Positions 9,684 through 19,747 of a DNA stretch of 32,127 bases are shown piece by piece. Each line of letters begins with the position of its first letter. Position 1 is the first letter of the stretch. Origin of the DNA: Candidatus Sumerlaeota bacterium (lineage in GTDB: Bacteria > Sumerlaeota > Sumerlaeia > SLMS01 > JAHLLQ01); contig JAJFLJ010000134.1 in assembly GCA_021772755.1 (NCBI GenBank), positions 1-32,127 on the forward strand. The letters are read 5' to 3'. The position numbers and the translations under genes are program-made. The notes below the pieces were generated by a model that saw nothing but the letters and a program-made list of their open reading frames with translations, made no database searches and had not been told where the DNA came from.

Positions 9684-10085
9684 ATGTCAGACAAGCTTGA
9701 GCAGTATCTCGGAACCGGACGCCGCAAGTGCTCCGTCGCCCGCGTCTATCTCCGCCCGGGCAAGGGCCGGTTCATGGTCAACGGCCGCGAAATCAAGGAC
9801 TACTTCGGCAACGTCTTCCGCTTCGAGGCGGTCAGCAAGTCGCCCCTGGTGACGACCGAAGCGGGCACCAAGTACGACGTCATCGTGAACGTCGTGGGCG
9901 GCGGCCCCGCCGGCCAGGCCGGCGCGATTCGCCACGGACTTTCCCGCGCGCTCATCCGCGCCAACGAGGGCAACCGCCCGCCGCTCAAGCGCGCCGGCTA
10001 CCTCACGCGCGACCCGCGCGTCGTCGAGCGCAAGAAGCCCGGCCTTCACAAGGCCCGCAAGGCGAGCCAGTTCTCCAAGCGCTGA
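9684..10085 (+). CDS. rpsI: 30S ribosomal protein S9
   Basis: [35 protein letters not shown]...[20 protein letters not shown]...[30 protein letters not shown]. Confidence 0.98.
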
Positions 10086-10111: not shown

Positions 10112-10140
10112 AACGCCTCCCGCAAACGCGGGGGGCGTTT
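10112..10140 (+). terminator. Rho-independent terminator after rpsI
   Basis: AACGCCTCCCGC-AAAC-GCGGGGGGCGTT followed by TTCG; stem with one G-T pair. Confidence 0.8.
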
Positions 10141-10208
10141 TCGCGTTCGAGCGCCCGTCGCAGCCGCCTGTCGGGATGTGGCCGATGCGCGGTATTGCTC
10201 AAGAAAGA

Positions 10209-10472
10209 CAGGCGCGGCGCGCCTGGAGTCGATAGCCTGCGGTTGCCGCGTGAGCGGCTACCGCAGGTCAGGCGGGCAGAGAGCCGAACCGCATCGCGGT
10301 TCGACGGGTTGGACACGGAAGAATATCGAACCGCGATGCGGTTCGATGGTGACGTTCGCGTTCCTCTGGTTGCCTGCGGCAACCAGAGGCTATCATCTCC
10401 AAGCGCGCTGCGCTTGGAGCAACAGGGCGCAGCGCGCCAGAGGGGGCCGGTGACGTTCTCGTTTCCGGCCCC
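10209..10472. repeat. Cluster of hairpins, mostly with 3-nt loops
   Basis: CAGGCGC-GGC-GCGCCTG (10209-10225); CCTGCGGT(T)GCCGC-GTGA-GCGGC(T)ACCGCAGG (10236-10267); CGAACCGC-ATC-GCGGTTCG (10285-10303); ATCGAACCGC-GAT-GCGGTTCGAT (10325-10347); CCTCTGGTTGCC-TGC-GGCAACCAGAGG (10363-10389); CTCCAAGCGC-GCT-GCGCTTGGAG (10397-10419); GGCGC-AGC-GCGCC (10426-10438); GGGGCCGG...CCGGCCCC (10443-10472). Confidence 0.9.
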
Positions 10473-10473
10473 T

Positions 10474-10494
10474 GATAGCCGATAGCCGACAGCC
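10474..10494. repeat. Short heptamer tandem repeat GATAGCC x3
   Basis: GATAGCC GATAGCC GACAGCC; same period and AGC core as the 8902-8957 tract. Confidence 0.7.
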
Positions 10495-10539
10495 ATTCGG
10501 CGTTTCTGCTCATGCCCCGCAGTCTCCGCCCCAAAGAAG

Positions 10540-10565
10540 GACGGCCCGCTGCGAAGCGGGCCGTC
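10540..10565 (-). terminator. Hairpin terminator downstream of the first metallopeptidase gene
   Basis: GACGGCCCGCT-GCGA-AGCGGGCCGTC; on the minus strand followed by CTTCTTT. Confidence 0.75.
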
Positions 10566-10592: not shown

Positions 10593-11915
10593 CTATTCGA
10601 CGCCGAACTGGTCGAGTTCCACGGGCACCAGGGCGCCGCCCCAGCCCATGGCGAGGAAGGCCGCCTGGGTGAGGGAGTCGTCCGGGCTCGGATCGGCGAT
10701 CGGCTCCATCAACTCGTGGGGCAGAAGCACCTCGTCCCAGTGCGAAACCGACGAGCCGGGAGTGAGAGAGAGCGGCGCGTACATGCGAACGCGCCCGCCG
10801 CTTCCCGTTCCGGAGGTGAGGGGAAGCGAGGCGGCCAGCGCCGTTACCCCGGCGTCGTCCCACAGCAGATTGCCGTTGTTGACCATGGACGTGGAGCGCT
10901 GGCCGTCGGACATCGAGGGCCAGTCGCTGGGGGAAATGGTGGGATCGTAGAGGAACTGCATAAAGACGTCGTCGGAACCGAAAAACTTGCCGCCAGTTGC
11001 CGGCGTGCTGGTGGTTTCCGTATCGACGAAGGTCGAGAAACAAAGACCGTGGGCGACCTCGTGCTTGAAGGTGTCGAAGAAATCGAGTTCCGTCGAGGTG
11101 GGACTGCCGTCGTAGCCGTAGTACCAGTCGATACTGGTGACACCGAGTCCTCCCACGCTCACGCACGAGGGATTGTTGTCCATATCGCTGTTGAAGGAGG
11201 AAAAAATGTCGGACTCGACTCCGTCGTTGTCTTGGTTGGCGATGGAGTTGGCCAGCGCCTGGTGATACCAGGTGTTGATGAAGGGTGCGGAGGATCCGCC
11301 ACCGGCAGGCGCCCAGTTTCCATGAACGGTGTTGGTTCCCGCAGAGCCGAGCACCCCGCCACCCGCATTGCAGGGGAGGGCGGCCCAATCGACCTCGACC
11401 TCGATGTCGATGTTCGACTGCACCCTGTCGGCCCAGTAGGAAAGCGCCTCGGTCATCGCGTTGGCTCTCTGGGCCCCCAGAGTCACGCCCGGGTTGCCGC
11501 CTTCCGGCGTGGCGGCGGTCCCGTCGTTGACGCCTTCGCCGCCGCCATCGAGCGAGACGATGATGAAGTTGGAGTAGGGCGCGGCCTTGGCTCCGCCGCG
11601 GGGCTGGATCGGAATCGTGGCGACGACGGTCCGGGTCTTGGCGGGCGCCGCATGATCGACCAGGGTGGCGCTTATGGCGCCGCTCTTCTCGGTGCTGACG
11701 ACCCACTCGTAGTCGTGCTTCGCGGCCTCGGCCGCCATCAGCGATTCGAGTTCGCCGGGGTTGGGGGCGCGCAGGCCTTCGGGGCCGACGAAGATGGTGG
11801 AGGCGTCGCGACCGGGGGTAAGCTGCTGGCAGACGGCGCCGGTGCTTTGCGCATGGAGCGCGAGGGGGGAGGCGGCGAGAATGCCGGCCGCCAGTGCAAA
11901 ACGAGTCGTTTTCAT
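10593..11915 (-). CDS. Secreted leishmanolysin-like (M8-type) zinc metallopeptidase, paralog 1
   Basis: Start at 11915: MKTTRFALAAGILAASPLALHAQS signal peptide; HEVAHGLCFSTF zinc motif; distal 'SVSHWDEVLLPHELMEPIAD' resembles the M8 third-His plus Met-turn block. Upstream part of the 597-aa track ORF is frame-shifted readthrough. Confidence 0.8.
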   Translation of the reverse strand: MKTTRFALAAGILAASPLALHAQSTGAVCQQLTPGRDASTIFVGPEGLRAPNPGELESLMAAEAAKHDYEWVVSTEKSGAISATLVDHAAPAKTRTVVATIPIQPRGGAKAAPYSNFIIVSLDGGGEGVNDGTAATPEGGNPGVTLGAQRANAMTEALSYWADRVQSNIDIEVEVDWAALPCNAGGGVLGSAGTNTVHGNWAPAGGGSSAPFINTWYHQALANSIANQDNDGVESDIFSSFNSDMDNNPSCVSVGGLGVTSIDWYYGYDGSPTSTELDFFDTFKHEVAHGLCFSTFVDTETTSTPATGGKFFGSDDVFMQFLYDPTISPSDWPSMSDGQRSTSMVNNGNLLWDDAGVTALAASLPLTSGTGSGGRVRMYAPLSLTPGSSVSHWDEVLLPHELMEPIADPSPDDSLTQAAFLAMGWGGALVPVELDQFGVE

Positions 11916-12063
11916 GGATCGTTTCTCCACGGAGAGTTTCAGAGGGGATGCGAAATCCTCCCCCGCCCGGATTGCGGCGGAAGGGGGCGCGTCCCACTTC
12001 TGAGCGTTACCGCCGAAATCAGCACGACGAACCCCGGTTTCGTCAACTCCAATGCATACGAAA

Positions 12064-12089
12064 AGGCCCGCCGGTGATCTGGCGGGCCT
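12064..12089 (-). terminator. Rho-independent terminator downstream of paralog 2
   Basis: Minus strand: AGGCCCGCC-AGATCACC-GGCGGGCCT followed by TTTCG. Confidence 0.85.
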
Positions 12090-12118
12090 CTTGGCGAATC
12101 CCGAAACGATGCGGGAGA

Positions 12119-13375
12119 TCAGTACTCCTGCCACTCTCCGACCGCCGAGGGGCCGAGATCGCCGGTCCAGCCCATGCCCTCGAAGGCCAGCTGGGTCAGC
12201 GTATCGTCGGGGGTCGGGTCGGCGATGGGCTCCATCAGCTCGTGGGGGAAGAGGACCTCGTCCCAGTGCGAGACGGAGGAGCCGGGGGCCAGGCTGGCGG
12301 GGGCGTACATGCGAACGCGACCGCCCGCGCCGATTCCCGAGGAGAGCCGCGAGGCAGCCTCCGCCGTGACGGTCGCCATGTCCCAAAGCAGGTTGCCGTT
12401 GTTCGTGGCCGACCCCATGCGCTGGGCATTGCTCATCGAGGGCCAGTCGCTGGGGGAGACGGTGGGGTCGTAGAGGAACTGCATGAAGACGTCGTCCAGA
12501 CCGCCGCTCTTCACCCCCGTGGCGGTGTTGACGTATGTCGAGAAGCCCAGACCGTGGGCCATCTCGTGCTTGAAGGTGTCGAAGAAGTCGATGTCTCCCC
12601 CGAAATTGCCGTCGTAGCCGTAGTACCAGTTCGTGCCGGTCAGGCAGCTGTTATTGTTATCGACGGAGGAATTGAAGCTGGCGAAGATCTCGGGATCGGA
12701 CCCGAAAAGATCGGTGCCGGCGAAGGAGTTGGCCAGCGGGTCGTGGTAGAGGGTGCTGGCGGCGGGGGCGCCGCCGAAGTCGCTTGCCGCCAGGGCGCCG
12801 GCACTGCCAAGAACGCCGCCACCGGAATTGCAGGTCAGCGGTTCCCAGTCCACCTCGACGTTGATGTCGACGGTGCTGTTGAGCTTGCCGCCCCAGTAGA
12901 GGGCCGCCTGCTGCATGGCGTTGGCGCGCTGCTGGCCGATGGTCGTACCCGGATTGCCCCCGACGGCTGCGCGGGCGGTCGGGTCGTTGACGCCTTCGCC
13001 GCCGCCATCCACGGAGAGGATGACGAAGTTGGCGAGGCCCTTGGCGCCGCCTGTGCCGATCGGTGCGGTGGCCACGACGTAGGGGGCTTCGCCACCCTTC
13101 TTCGCCGTGCTCTTGATGCTGAGGCGCGTGATGCCGGACTTCATCACCAGCGTCTCGGTCTGGAACGCGGCGCGGGCCCGTTCCTGTTCCAGCAGACTGC
13201 TCACCTCTTCCGCCGACGCCGCGCGGGAATTGCCGTCCGCATCGACGAACGCCATCGGCGATTCGACGCCGGGGACGAGCTGCTGGCACACGACATGGGT
13301 TCCGCCGCCAAGAGCGGCGAGCGGCGACGCGGCCATGATGCCGACCGCGACGATGGAACGAATGGAACACTTCAT
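12119..13375 (-). CDS. Secreted leishmanolysin-like (M8-type) zinc metallopeptidase, paralog 2
   Basis: Start at 13375: MKCSIRSIVAVGIMAASPLAALGG signal peptide; HEMAHGLGFSTY; 'SVSHWDEVLFPHELMEPIADPTPDDTLTQ'. Strong similarity to the 10593-11915 product. Confidence 0.82.
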   Translation of the reverse strand: MKCSIRSIVAVGIMAASPLAALGGGTHVVCQQLVPGVESPMAFVDADGNSRAASAEEVSSLLEQERARAAFQTETLVMKSGITRLSIKSTAKKGGEAPYVVATAPIGTGGAKGLANFVILSVDGGGEGVNDPTARAAVGGNPGTTIGQQRANAMQQAALYWGGKLNSTVDINVEVDWEPLTCNSGGGVLGSAGALAASDFGGAPAASTLYHDPLANSFAGTDLFGSDPEIFASFNSSVDNNNSCLTGTNWYYGYDGNFGGDIDFFDTFKHEMAHGLGFSTYVNTATGVKSGGLDDVFMQFLYDPTVSPSDWPSMSNAQRMGSATNNGNLLWDMATVTAEAASRLSSGIGAGGRVRMYAPASLAPGSSVSHWDEVLFPHELMEPIADPTPDDTLTQLAFEGMGWTGDLGPSAVGEWQEY

Positions 13376-13574
13376 GGAGAATCCTCCAAACCTGGAATGT
13401 GTCCTTCGGCTGCGCCACGGAAACGAATCCGTAACCGCAAGGGACGACAGGCTCCCACTTCCGCCGATAAGAACGAGAATGCGAATGGGGGAGGACTTCG
13501 TGGCGGTCAAGGCCAGAACTTCCGTCCGAATCCGAATTGTGCCCGAGCCCGTCGCACACCCCCATTGGCGCGCC

Positions 13575-15158
13575 ATGCCGAGCCAACCCCCTTCCGAAAG
13601 TGCATACACAGCCACGTTGCTGCGGATCGCGGTTCCGTTGCTGCTGGTGGCGGCGGCGTTGCGGTTCTGGAGCCTCGGATCGGTTCCGCCGGGACTGTTT
13701 CGCGACGAGGTGGAGAAAGGCTGGACCGCGCTGGAACTCTGGCAGACGGGTCGCCAGGGCTACGTCGCCACGGACGGAACGTTCGTGGTGTCGCGGCTTC
13801 TGCCGGTCTTTACCGACGCGGTCGGCGTGAAGACCTCGGCGGTGTACCAGTACATGACGGCGCCGGTCGTGGGCCTGTTCGGACTTTCGCCCTTTACGAC
13901 GCGGTTCGTCGCGGCGCTCGCGGGAACGCTGACGGCGCTGATGGCGATGCTTCTCGCGCTGCAACTCGCGCGCGGCGAGCCGAAGGCGGCGCTCTTCGCT
14001 GCTGCGGCCATGGCCTTCTGCGCCGTTTCGCCGACGCACGTTCTCTTCAGCCGGTGGGCGCAGCAGGGCGTCACCGTGCCGCTGTTCCTGACGGCGGGAC
14101 TGGCTCTGGCGATGTCGCTTCCCGCGATGGGCGAACGCCACCGCCGCGCGGCCGCCGCACTCGCGGGTCTTCTGCTGGCGCTCGCGTGCTATGCGTACGC
14201 GCCGGCGAGACTCGTCGTGCCGCTGGTCGTCGGGGGACTGCTGCTGGAGCTTCGGCTCTGGCGGCGCGAACCGGCCGCAGCGTGGAGGTTCGCATGGCCG
14301 GGGGCGGCGATCTTCGCGGTGGCGGCGTGCGCGCTCGTGGTGTTCACGCTCACCGGCGGTTCCGAACGTCTCGGACGCATTTCCGTCTTCGCGGGCGATC
14401 GCGGAGTCGCCGGCGGCGCGCTGCACTTCGTCGCGAACTACGCGAAGCACTTCGATCCGCGGTTTCTGTTTCTCTTCGGCGACGCCAATCCGCGCCACGC
14501 GATGCCGCTGGCGGGAATCGTCGCGTGGGCGGAGACGCCGTTCTTCCTCGCGGGACTGGCGACGCTGGCGAACCTTCGCCGGCGCGGAAGCGTCCTGTTG
14601 CTCGTCTGGCTGCTGGCGGCGCCGGTCGCCGCGGCACTGACGAACGACGGCGTGCCGCACGCATTGCGCTCGATTCTCCTGTTTCCCGTCGTGCATCTGA
14701 TCGCCGCGCGCGGCGTGGTTCTTCTCGCCGAACGGACGTCGCCGCGCGTCGCCGCGACGTGCGCGGGCGCGTGTTGTCTGGCGACGCTGGCGCTCTGCGT
14801 CGTGGCGATGAAGACGAAGGTCGCGCGCGACGCGGCGTCCTGGCAGTACGGCGTGCTGGAGGCGATGGACGCGATGTGGCGCGCGAATCCGCAGGGGCCG
14901 AACGCGCTCGGCGCCGAAGTGCCCTACGCGCACTACTACGTTCTCTTCTTCGAGCGCCCCTCCGCTGCGGCGTGGCACGAGGAGGGGCCGGCCGTTCTGC
15001 GCACGGCGATCCTCGCTCCGGGTGGAACCATGCCGGAGGGCGCGCTGGTGGCGAGGCCGAACTACGACCTCTTCGGGCGGGCGGGGGAGCTCGACGTGCG
15101 CGGACTCTCGGGCGACGAAACGGCGCCGCCGGTCATGACGATCCGTCCGGCGCGATAG
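13575..15158 (+). CDS. Multi-pass membrane glycosyltransferase (GT39/ArnT-PMT-like)
   Basis: Start MPSQPPSESAYTATLLRIAVPLLLVAAALRFWSLGSVPPGLFRDEVEKGWTALEL...; early acidic 'RDE' loop after TM1 and many TM segments. Confidence 0.8.
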   Translation: MPSQPPSESAYTATLLRIAVPLLLVAAALRFWSLGSVPPGLFRDEVEKGWTALELWQTGRQGYVATDGTFVVSRLLPVFTDAVGVKTSAVYQYMTAPVVGLFGLSPFTTRFVAALAGTLTALMAMLLALQLARGEPKAALFAAAAMAFCAVSPTHVLFSRWAQQGVTVPLFLTAGLALAMSLPAMGERHRRAAAALAGLLLALACYAYAPARLVVPLVVGGLLLELRLWRREPAAAWRFAWPGAAIFAVAACALVVFTLTGGSERLGRISVFAGDRGVAGGALHFVANYAKHFDPRFLFLFGDANPRHAMPLAGIVAWAETPFFLAGLATLANLRRRGSVLLLVWLLAAPVAAALTNDGVPHALRSILLFPVVHLIAARGVVLLAERTSPRVAATCAGACCLATLALCVVAMKTKVARDAASWQYGVLEAMDAMWRANPQGPNALGAEVPYAHYYVLFFERPSAAAWHEEGPAVLRTAILAPGGTMPEGALVARPNYDLFGRAGELDVRGLSGDETAPPVMTIRPAR

Positions 15159-18529: not shown

Positions 18530-19747
18530 ATGACTAGAAACCGCACCAGGCCTTCGATCGCTCGGCTGCTTCTCGCGGCGGTGCTTTGCACCTTCGCCTC
18601 GCTTGGTGCATCCCAGACCGTCGCTGCCGACTGGTCGCTCGAACTTCGCGGCGACGGCACCGTTCTCTGGCAGGGTGCCACGCCCGGCGGCGGTTCCCCC
18701 TGGCGGGCCGAGGCCATCTGGACGAGCGCCTTCGACCCTGCCGAGTCCACCGTTTTGGCGGACGAACCGGCAGGCGAGTCTCTCCGCATCGTTCTGGACC
18801 CCCCACCGGGAATCGGAACGATCGTTCTGAAACTCGCCGGAGGCCCGGAAACCCTTACCGCCTGGGCATCGACCTCCGGGCCCCAGACCGCTTTCGACGA
18901 CCTGCTCGTCTCTGCCCGCGCAGCCCGCAACGACCTCGAAGCGGAAATGATCGTCGCCAACCGCTATGGGGTTCGCCGCCCCGAGGCCCGCGCCATGCTC
19001 ACCATCGCCGATATCTGGCTGGGGCACGCCGAGCACCTCGAAACCGACGAAACCCGGCGCACCTGGGGGCGGTGGTGGCTGGCCTACATCGCCGCCGAAT
19101 GCGCCGCCGAGCAGACCTTGCTGGTGGAGTTGCGCGACAAGCCCGGGGACTGGACGGTCATTGACGATCCGCCGCTTCAGGAGCTGCGCGTTTCAAAGGA
19201 TGGGCTGAGGCTGGAGACCGGCATTTGGACCCCCGAGGGCACGGACTGGGTGCCGGTGCGGCTCTTTGGCTTGAGAGGCCATTTCGAACCCGGCGACGCC
19301 CGGCTGGTGAGGGATCTGGGCTTCAACTTCATCGAGCACCATTCGGAAATCGTCACCACGCCCGCGCGCCTGCCGGAGGACGTGAAGCGAGAGGTCGAAC
19401 GCCTGAACATGGGATGGTGGGGGATTCTGCCGAAGGGGGCGATCACCCAGGGAATATGCCAGTCGTGGTTGGAACCAAGCCTCGTTCCGGCGTACGGATA
19501 CTGGTCTCCGTACGCCGAGAAAACGGGACGCGACGAAAGTCTGGCAGCCAATCCCTGGAGGCTGCGGGCCTACAGCCACAAGGCTTTGCGCTATCGCTGG
19601 GGCGAGACGGTGGAGCTTCCCCCGGGCTGGCCCCACGACCCCTTCGAGGAGACGAGCGTGCTGCCGGAGGGCGTGGAGCTCTCGATCCAAAACGAAGCCG
19701 GAGCACCTTCGGCGAAGGTGCTCCGGCTGATGCAGGGCGTGGACTGA
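18530..19747 (+). CDS. Secreted hypothetical protein (possible truncated glycoside-hydrolase-like)
   Basis: MTRNRTRPSIARLLLAAVLCTFASLGASQTVAADWSLEL...; AGGAAG SD-like site upstream of 18530; '...WVPVRLFGLRGHFEPGDARLVRDLGFNFIEHH...' resembles the start of a TIM-barrel hydrolase domain. Confidence 0.7.
   Translation: MTRNRTRPSIARLLLAAVLCTFASLGASQTVAADWSLELRGDGTVLWQGATPGGGSPWRAEAIWTSAFDPAESTVLADEPAGESLRIVLDPPPGIGTIVLKLAGGPETLTAWASTSGPQTAFDDLLVSARAARNDLEAEMIVANRYGVRRPEARAMLTIADIWLGHAEHLETDETRRTWGRWWLAYIAAECAAEQTLLVELRDKPGDWTVIDDPPLQELRVSKDGLRLETGIWTPEGTDWVPVRLFGLRGHFEPGDARLVRDLGFNFIEHHSEIVTTPARLPEDVKREVERLNMGWWGILPKGAITQGICQSWLEPSLVPAYGYWSPYAEKTGRDESLAANPWRLRAYSHKALRYRWGETVELPPGWPHDPFEETSVLPEGVELSIQNEAGAPSAKVLRLMQGVD
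19696..19728. repeat. Perfect palindrome (15-bp arms, GGC loop) inside the 3' end of the preceding CDS
   Basis: AGCCGGAGCACCTTC-GGC-GAAGGTGCTCCGGCT. Confidence 0.95.

Follow-up and report, generated by a model that had tools for sequence, protein, structure and literature searches.

The closest described systems are the REPINs and the REP/RAYT pairs of E. coli (rayT) and P. fluorescens SBW25 (PMC3116915, PMC2817692). There, a REP is one hairpin of 20-40 nt with a GTAG tag at its foot. REPs occur in inverted pairs, they adjoin one Y1 gene, and each such gene has its own repeat family. The protein, TnpA-REP, carries a Y...NP motif (class 2). In E. coli, cleavage by TnpA-REP needs both the GTAG tag and a bulge in the middle of the stem (PMC8266576).

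Other Y1 transposases are arranged differently. IS200/IS605 elements have an HUH/Y1 transposase, make no target duplication and often carry tnpB; they end in subterminal hairpins, all on a single strand, and have no terminal inverted repeats. In TIRtrons, as far as the available text of Di Nocera et al. 2013 (PMC3733652) goes, a Y1 gene (TIRYT) lies between long inverted repeats, some of them partly self-complementary, and some families are dispersed as dimers; the ends share the motif GGGGWSAS.

The third group is subclass 1.2 of the Y1 family. In the available portion of the survey by Quentin et al. 2018 (PMC6006769), no REPs are listed for its members, which are described as lacking IS properties and, in general, terminal structures of the IS200 type; no DNA partner is given for this type, and it is found mostly in Cyanobacteria and Bacteroidetes. 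The same portion assigns the 26 TIRYT proteins to class 2 (subclass 2.1, 20; subclasses 2.2 and 2.5, 6) and none to 1.2. In the open-access literature, to the extent that the texts were accessible, we found no description of ends for subclass 1.2. In public genomes, proteins with its Y...Q..HH motif carry the annotation IS200/IS605 transposase.

A hairpin cluster between convergent genes

The window is the whole stretch of DNA that was analysed, 32,127 nt from Candidatus Sumerlaeota bacterium. Here rpsI (9684-10085) is followed by a convergent intergenic region that contains a cluster of hairpins. A first-pass annotation had described at least six stems in this region, mostly with loops of 3 nt, and all of them are present where it placed them. 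The features are listed below, with the hairpins numbered according to the two halves, A and B, of the element described in the next section.

10112-10143, plus strand: terminator of rpsI, a GC-rich inverted repeat followed by TTTT, outside the element
10209-10416, no strand: the whole REPIN/MITE-like element, 208 bp, inverted half-units A then B; six other full-length copies
10209-10225, plus strand: A half, h1, CAGGCGC-GGC-GCGCCTG, loop GGC; compensatory change in 5/28 half-units
10226-10235, plus strand: A half, linker of 10 nt, GAGTCGATAG, whose last four bases, ATAG, adjoin the foot of h2
10236-10267, plus strand: A half, h2 (REP core, inverted repeat I9), CCTGCGGTTGCCGC-GTGA-GCGGCTACCGCAGG, a long hairpin whose 13-bp stem has one T.T mismatch, with a loop of 4 nt
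10285-10303, plus strand: A half, h3, CGAACCGC-ATC-GCGGTTCG, loop ATC
10304-10324, no strand: central 21 nt between h3 and h3', compared by alignment with the C302 locus
10325-10347, minus strand: B half, h3', ATCGAACCGC-GAT-GCGGTTCGAT, loop GAT
10363-10389, minus strand: B half, h2', CCTCTGGTTGCC-TGC-GGCAACCAGAGG, a perfect stem with loop TGC
10390-10399, minus strand: B half, linker, GAGATGATAG in minus-strand reading
10400-10416, minus strand: B half, h1', CAAGCGC-AGC-GCGCTTG in minus-strand reading; in the window copy the stem, with loop GCT, extends to 10397-10419
10426-10438: degenerate 5-bp stem with loop AGC, just outside the element
10443-10472: hairpin just outside the element
10540-10565: terminator-like hairpin of the convergent gene, next to minus-strand ORFs (10593-13615)

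The cluster is confirmed to be real and not a product of chance. The 276 nt from 10200 to 10475 hold five perfect stems with 3-nt loops and a length of at least 7 bp, while 2000 first-order Markov shuffles give 0.033 on average and never more than 2. Within a sample of 201 kb from this genome no stretch of 276 nt has more than two such stems, and their total in the sample is at chance level (33 seen, 33.6 expected). It is thus the cluster that is special and not the genome, and the genome-wide check suggested in the first-pass annotation speaks, in this sample, against a general enrichment of 3-nt-loop stems. One more perfect stem, of 15 bp with a 3-nt loop (AGCCGGAGCACCTTCGGCGAAGGTGCTCCGGCT), lies at 19696-19728 and falls outside the repeat family of the element.

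When folded as a single DNA strand the element reaches -85.8 kcal/mol (z = -12.5), and as RNA its z-score is -11.7. Such a strong RNA fold in a convergent intergenic position would suit a transcription terminator, or a structure in the 3' UTR of the RNA, that is maintained for the expression of rpsI or its convergent neighbour. However, rpsI has its own terminator and the convergent gene its own hairpin at 10540-10565, and an Rfam scan of the window matched no family. Further, the element recurs at unrelated loci, its half-units flank transposase genes, and it is absent after rpsI in a genome of the same genus (see below). We therefore regard a role in rpsI or convergent-gene expression as very improbable.

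On the minus strand, 10593-13615 consists of two adjacent paralogous ORFs for putative secreted metalloprotease-like proteins (motifs HEVAHGLCF and HEMAHGLGF).

Two inverted half-units and their copies

The second half of the cluster mirrors the first: the three hairpins return inverted, giving h1 h2 h3 / h3' h2' h1' (inverted repeats I1 and I2). Each half-unit is about 95 nt long and follows one plan: h1, a 10-nt linker ending in ATAG, h2 and h3. In the A half the ATAG occupies the place of the GTAG tag of REPs, and h2 is separated from h3 by a spacer of 17 nt. The h2 of the A half has its T.T mismatch between an outer stem of 8 bp and an inner stem of 5 bp, whereas the h2' of the B half is mostly a perfect stem among the half-units.

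Besides the window, the genome holds six full-length copies of 206-209 bp and 81-90% identity, on C302, C184, C294, C239, C185 and C259. When all seven are aligned in one orientation the hairpins agree throughout while the spacers differ. In addition there are about 17 further half-units, and a pattern for the junction of h1, linker and h2 finds about 31 genuine-looking sites in the genome. The hairpins thus recur elsewhere, as the first-pass annotation had implied, and it was also right that GAACCGCATCGCGGTTC and GAACCGCGATGCGGTTC are exact reverse complements. Its view that the stems share geometry rather than sequence does not hold, given the inverted repetition and the identity between full copies.

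The 28 half-units compared show compensatory, two-sided changes in h1, h2 and h3. In h1, CAGGCGC/GCGCCTG becomes CAAGCGC/GCGCTTG in the five half-units with the compensatory change, and in h3 GAACCGC/GCGGTTC becomes GAACAGC/GCTGTTC in several copies. The foot of h2 is more variable: CCTGCGG/CCGCAGG changes to CCTCTGG/CCAGAGG, CCTATGG/CCATAGG and others, and all the variants found (CCTGCGG, CCTCTGG, CCTATGG, CCTGTGG, CCTTTGG and CCCCTGG) are compensated. Nearly all half-units of the window family have ATAG or GTAG before h2, strict GTAG being one variant among several.

It could be argued that unrelated palindromes have piled up independently in a tolerant intergenic region, which corresponds to the nested landing site proposed in the first-pass annotation. 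The degenerate stem at 10426-10438 and the hairpin at 10443-10472, just beyond the element, would agree with this. However, the ordered set h1-h2-h3/h3'-h2'-h1' is found in all full copies and is co-linear, which makes an independent origin of the hairpins hardly credible. The locus is a single composite of two inverted half-units and not a series of insertions into one another.

The region 10426-10472 contains degenerate extra stems (GGCGCAGCGCGCC; GGGGCCGGTGACG...CGTTTCCGGCCCC) as well as a 15-nt copy of the spacer of the B half, GGTGACGTTCTCGTT, matching at 14 of the 15 positions. Together they suggest, by their sequence, a decayed further half-unit.

Directly 3' of the element, at 10475-10497, there is a short tandem-like heptad, GATAGCCGATAGCCGACAGCC. 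Similar repeats, GATAGC/GACAGC or GGCTGTC, adjoin the element copies on C35, C53 and C294; the heptad may be a separate microsatellite or the outer part of the element.

The copies lie at unrelated loci as dispersed inverted doublets, as in REP/REPIN-RAYT systems, but their number is low compared with enterobacterial REPs. In a second arrangement the B half comes first and is followed by the A half after 150-240 nt; it is seen on C59, C53, C183 and C248, and on C35 with a broken A half. None of the six full copies has a target-site duplication (0-1 nt), which is expected for Y1 transposition.

A DNA search in 40 relatives confines the element itself to the source genome. Its weak relatives are two copies with 68% matches in G010, of the same order, and a short match in G009. 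One genome of the same genus lacks the element after rpsI; as a different neighbour gene is found there it is not a clean empty site, and the comparison is suggestive.

Y1 transposase genes and their flanks

Six genes for Y1 transposases (PF01797) were identified in the genome. All are of the Y...Q..HH type and none is a class 2 RAYT by its Y motif. They are divergent single genes and not identical IS copies, and their catalytic motifs are intact: HUH (DHVH), WQ and Y...Q..HH.

Two of these genes lie next to half-units of the repeat or of a close relative of it. On C302 an A-type block (h1 GAAGCGCGTACGCGCTTC, a linker ending in CCAG, h2 CCTGTGGTTGCCG...GGCTACCACAGG and h3 GAACCGCGTCGCGGTTC) precedes a Y1 gene of 150 aa, and an inverse B-type block follows it. 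This A-gene-B unit is shorter than 700 bp, and its half-units belong to a family related to that of the window. For the Y1 gene on C59, an A half-unit (h1 CAGGCGCAGCGCGCCTG) that belongs to the family of the window copy itself stops 12 nt short of the ATG; no recognisable B half-unit is found downstream, and upstream the contig begins inside the repeat. The C302 and C59 proteins share 54% identity and form one group in the tree (99/92).

Since their half-units are shared with Y1 loci, the gene-less 208-bp elements look like the ends of an A-gene-B unit in which about 20 nt have replaced the gene. It is the central 21 nt of the element that correspond to the site of the Y1 gene. We are confident that the cluster in the window represents a copy of a REPIN-like, non-autonomous and presumably mobile element, with ends made of the half-units that also flank Y1 genes. 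The first-pass idea of REP/MITE-like elements and single-strand DNA processing seems, judging from the dispersed copies, the six Y1 genes and the half-units beside two of them, to be correct in kind; the landing site that it attached to this idea is not.

The other four Y1 genes, on C231 (L056), C106 (L057), C197 (L055) and C28 (L058), each have a hairpin family of their own in the same inverted layout. Repeated blocks surround the gene on C231 and C106, and the C231 family is also represented on C259, by a dispersed inverted pair with a gap of 20 nt.

In several ways this system resembles REPINs and REP/RAYT: the hairpin foot is tagged (ATAG here, GTAG there), the half-units form inverted pairs and adjoin one Y1 gene, by the same family on C59 and by a related one on C302, and every Y1 gene has its own repeat family. 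It differs in that the half-unit has three hairpins instead of one, and in that the cognate protein is of class 1. TIRtrons are similar in having a Y1 gene between long inverted repeats, but the plan of their ends, in the available text, is the common motif and not three hairpins.

Because of the analogy with E. coli TnpA-REP (PMC8266576), we propose h2 with its tag as the recognised unit. Most likely a Y1 protein of the C59/C302 type would recognise h2 and the ATAG tag on single-stranded DNA. During this step h1 and h3 would serve as accessory structures, which perhaps hold the strand open or contact the C-terminal tail of the protein. The HUH/tyrosine site of the protein would then cut the ends of the element, and the unit would be moved or copied to intergenic sites with no target duplication.

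The same layout in other phyla

One genome per species was searched with an alignment of the six Y1 proteins, which yielded 80 named loci, 74 of them with both flanks. The motifs DH[VI]H, WQ and Y...Q..HH are all present in 71 of the 80. As these relatives were picked by protein similarity with motif patterns, such motif counts are partly built in, which is not the case for the flank test.

In the flank test, 350 bp upstream of the gene were aligned in inverted orientation to 350 bp downstream, with 60 shuffles and 248 control positions from the same loci. An inverted repeat across the gene scores above the best of the 60 shuffles in 67 of the 74 relatives. A score of at least 45 is reached in 50 of the 74 (24 are below) and at none of the 248 control positions. 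For E. coli rayT, used as a control, the known REPs were recovered.

A stricter search required a perfect block of h1, a linker ending in AG, h2 and h3. Such blocks are found upstream at 29/74 and downstream at 35/74 loci, compared with 5/496 control flanks; several Bacteroidota loci have a part of the layout only. The linker before h2 is 8-13 nt long in other Y1 families and phyla, mostly 10-12. The tags are mainly NTAG or NCAG (GTAG, ATAG and TTAG being commonest), where the final AG was required by the search. In h1 and h3 most tri-loops are GNA (GAA, GGA, GCA, GTA) or AAC/AAA, and h3 lies a median of 21.5 nt from the gene. In other phyla, too, the h2 of the A half has a T.T mismatch 8 bp up from its foot.

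Isolates or complete genomes with such loci include Pan216, Kaistella haifensis, Verrucomicrobium and Haloferula (Verrucomicrobiota, Planctomycetota and Bacteroidota). MAGs add Acidobacteriota, Calditrichota, Hydrogenedentota and other phyla; a few of these assignments could be binning errors, but the isolates alone cover three.

The Y1 proteins are about 148-150 aa long and have the three motifs that form the signature of subclass 1.2 in the available text of PMC6006769. Their motifs fit an assignment to this type, as do their low copy number and the divergence of copies within a genome. What differs from the published picture, as far as that text shows it, is that inverted ends with three hairpins flank the gene, that gene-less copies are dispersed, and that the type is frequent in Verrucomicrobiota and Planctomycetota.

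With the NCBIfam model transpos_IS200 (cut-off 55 bits) three distant relatives score 67-73 bits, while two tested proteins of the source genome are just below the cut-off, at 48-52. The cut-off of the model REP_Tyr_transpos (80 bits) is reached by none of them: they have no hit or score 21 or 33 bits, compared with 179 bits for E. coli RayT. Having Y...Q..HH in place of Y...NP, the protein is not a class 2 RAYT, although with its REP-like repeats the system works like REP/REPIN-RAYT. In the tree the 35 Y...Q..HH rows are apart from the 7 IS200 rows, by two forks (92/85 and 91/90) that are both open in a tree that lacks published subclass 1.2 sequences and has a bootstrap that is not fully settled.

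The better match to the IS200 model could indicate that the element is an IS200/IS605 element that has lost its gene, a PATE-like derivative with ordinary subterminal hairpins. However, the ends here are inverted repeats of three hairpins, and eight typical IS200/IS605 tnpA loci showed no inverted repeat across the gene in the same test, where several have tnpB upstream and the left end may be beyond the 350 bp. Further, the C302 unit has no room for tnpB, the Y1 genes are not identical IS copies, and the tree separates the Y...Q..HH type from IS200 tnpA, with the reservation about its open forks. Descent from an ordinary IS200/IS605 element is therefore very improbable, and we retain the REPIN-like element.

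We consider it probable that the Y...Q..HH lineage of class 1 is a widespread REP-transposase system of its own, with a three-hairpin end module (tri-loops mostly GNA-like) whose plan, but not whose sequence, is conserved in at least six phyla, and with gene-less, REPIN-like offspring. If so, the tagged-REP life style arose in, or is shared with, the IS200 branch and does not belong to class 2 RAYTs alone. A defined three-hairpin cognate end is a testable substrate that connects IS-type and REP-type transposases, and the spread of gene-less repeats by a domesticated single-strand transposase becomes testable outside Proteobacteria. Such ends may also account for the hairpin-rich repeats that lie between genes in Planctomycetes, Verrucomicrobia and Bacteroidetes.

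In Planctomycetes bacterium Pan216 (L142, 2495-2977) the half-units are arranged differently from inverted pairs: five A blocks stand in direct tandem before the Y1 gene with a period of 95 bp. A B block follows the gene, and elsewhere the chromosome has scattered inverted pairs with a gap of 18 nt.

Finally, at L132 (G004:C64) there is a different Y1 protein of 151 aa, with a Y...KQKEHH region. Its gene is flanked by a perfect inverted repeat of 58 bp that contains a AGCGTGCTTCAGCACGCT hairpin.
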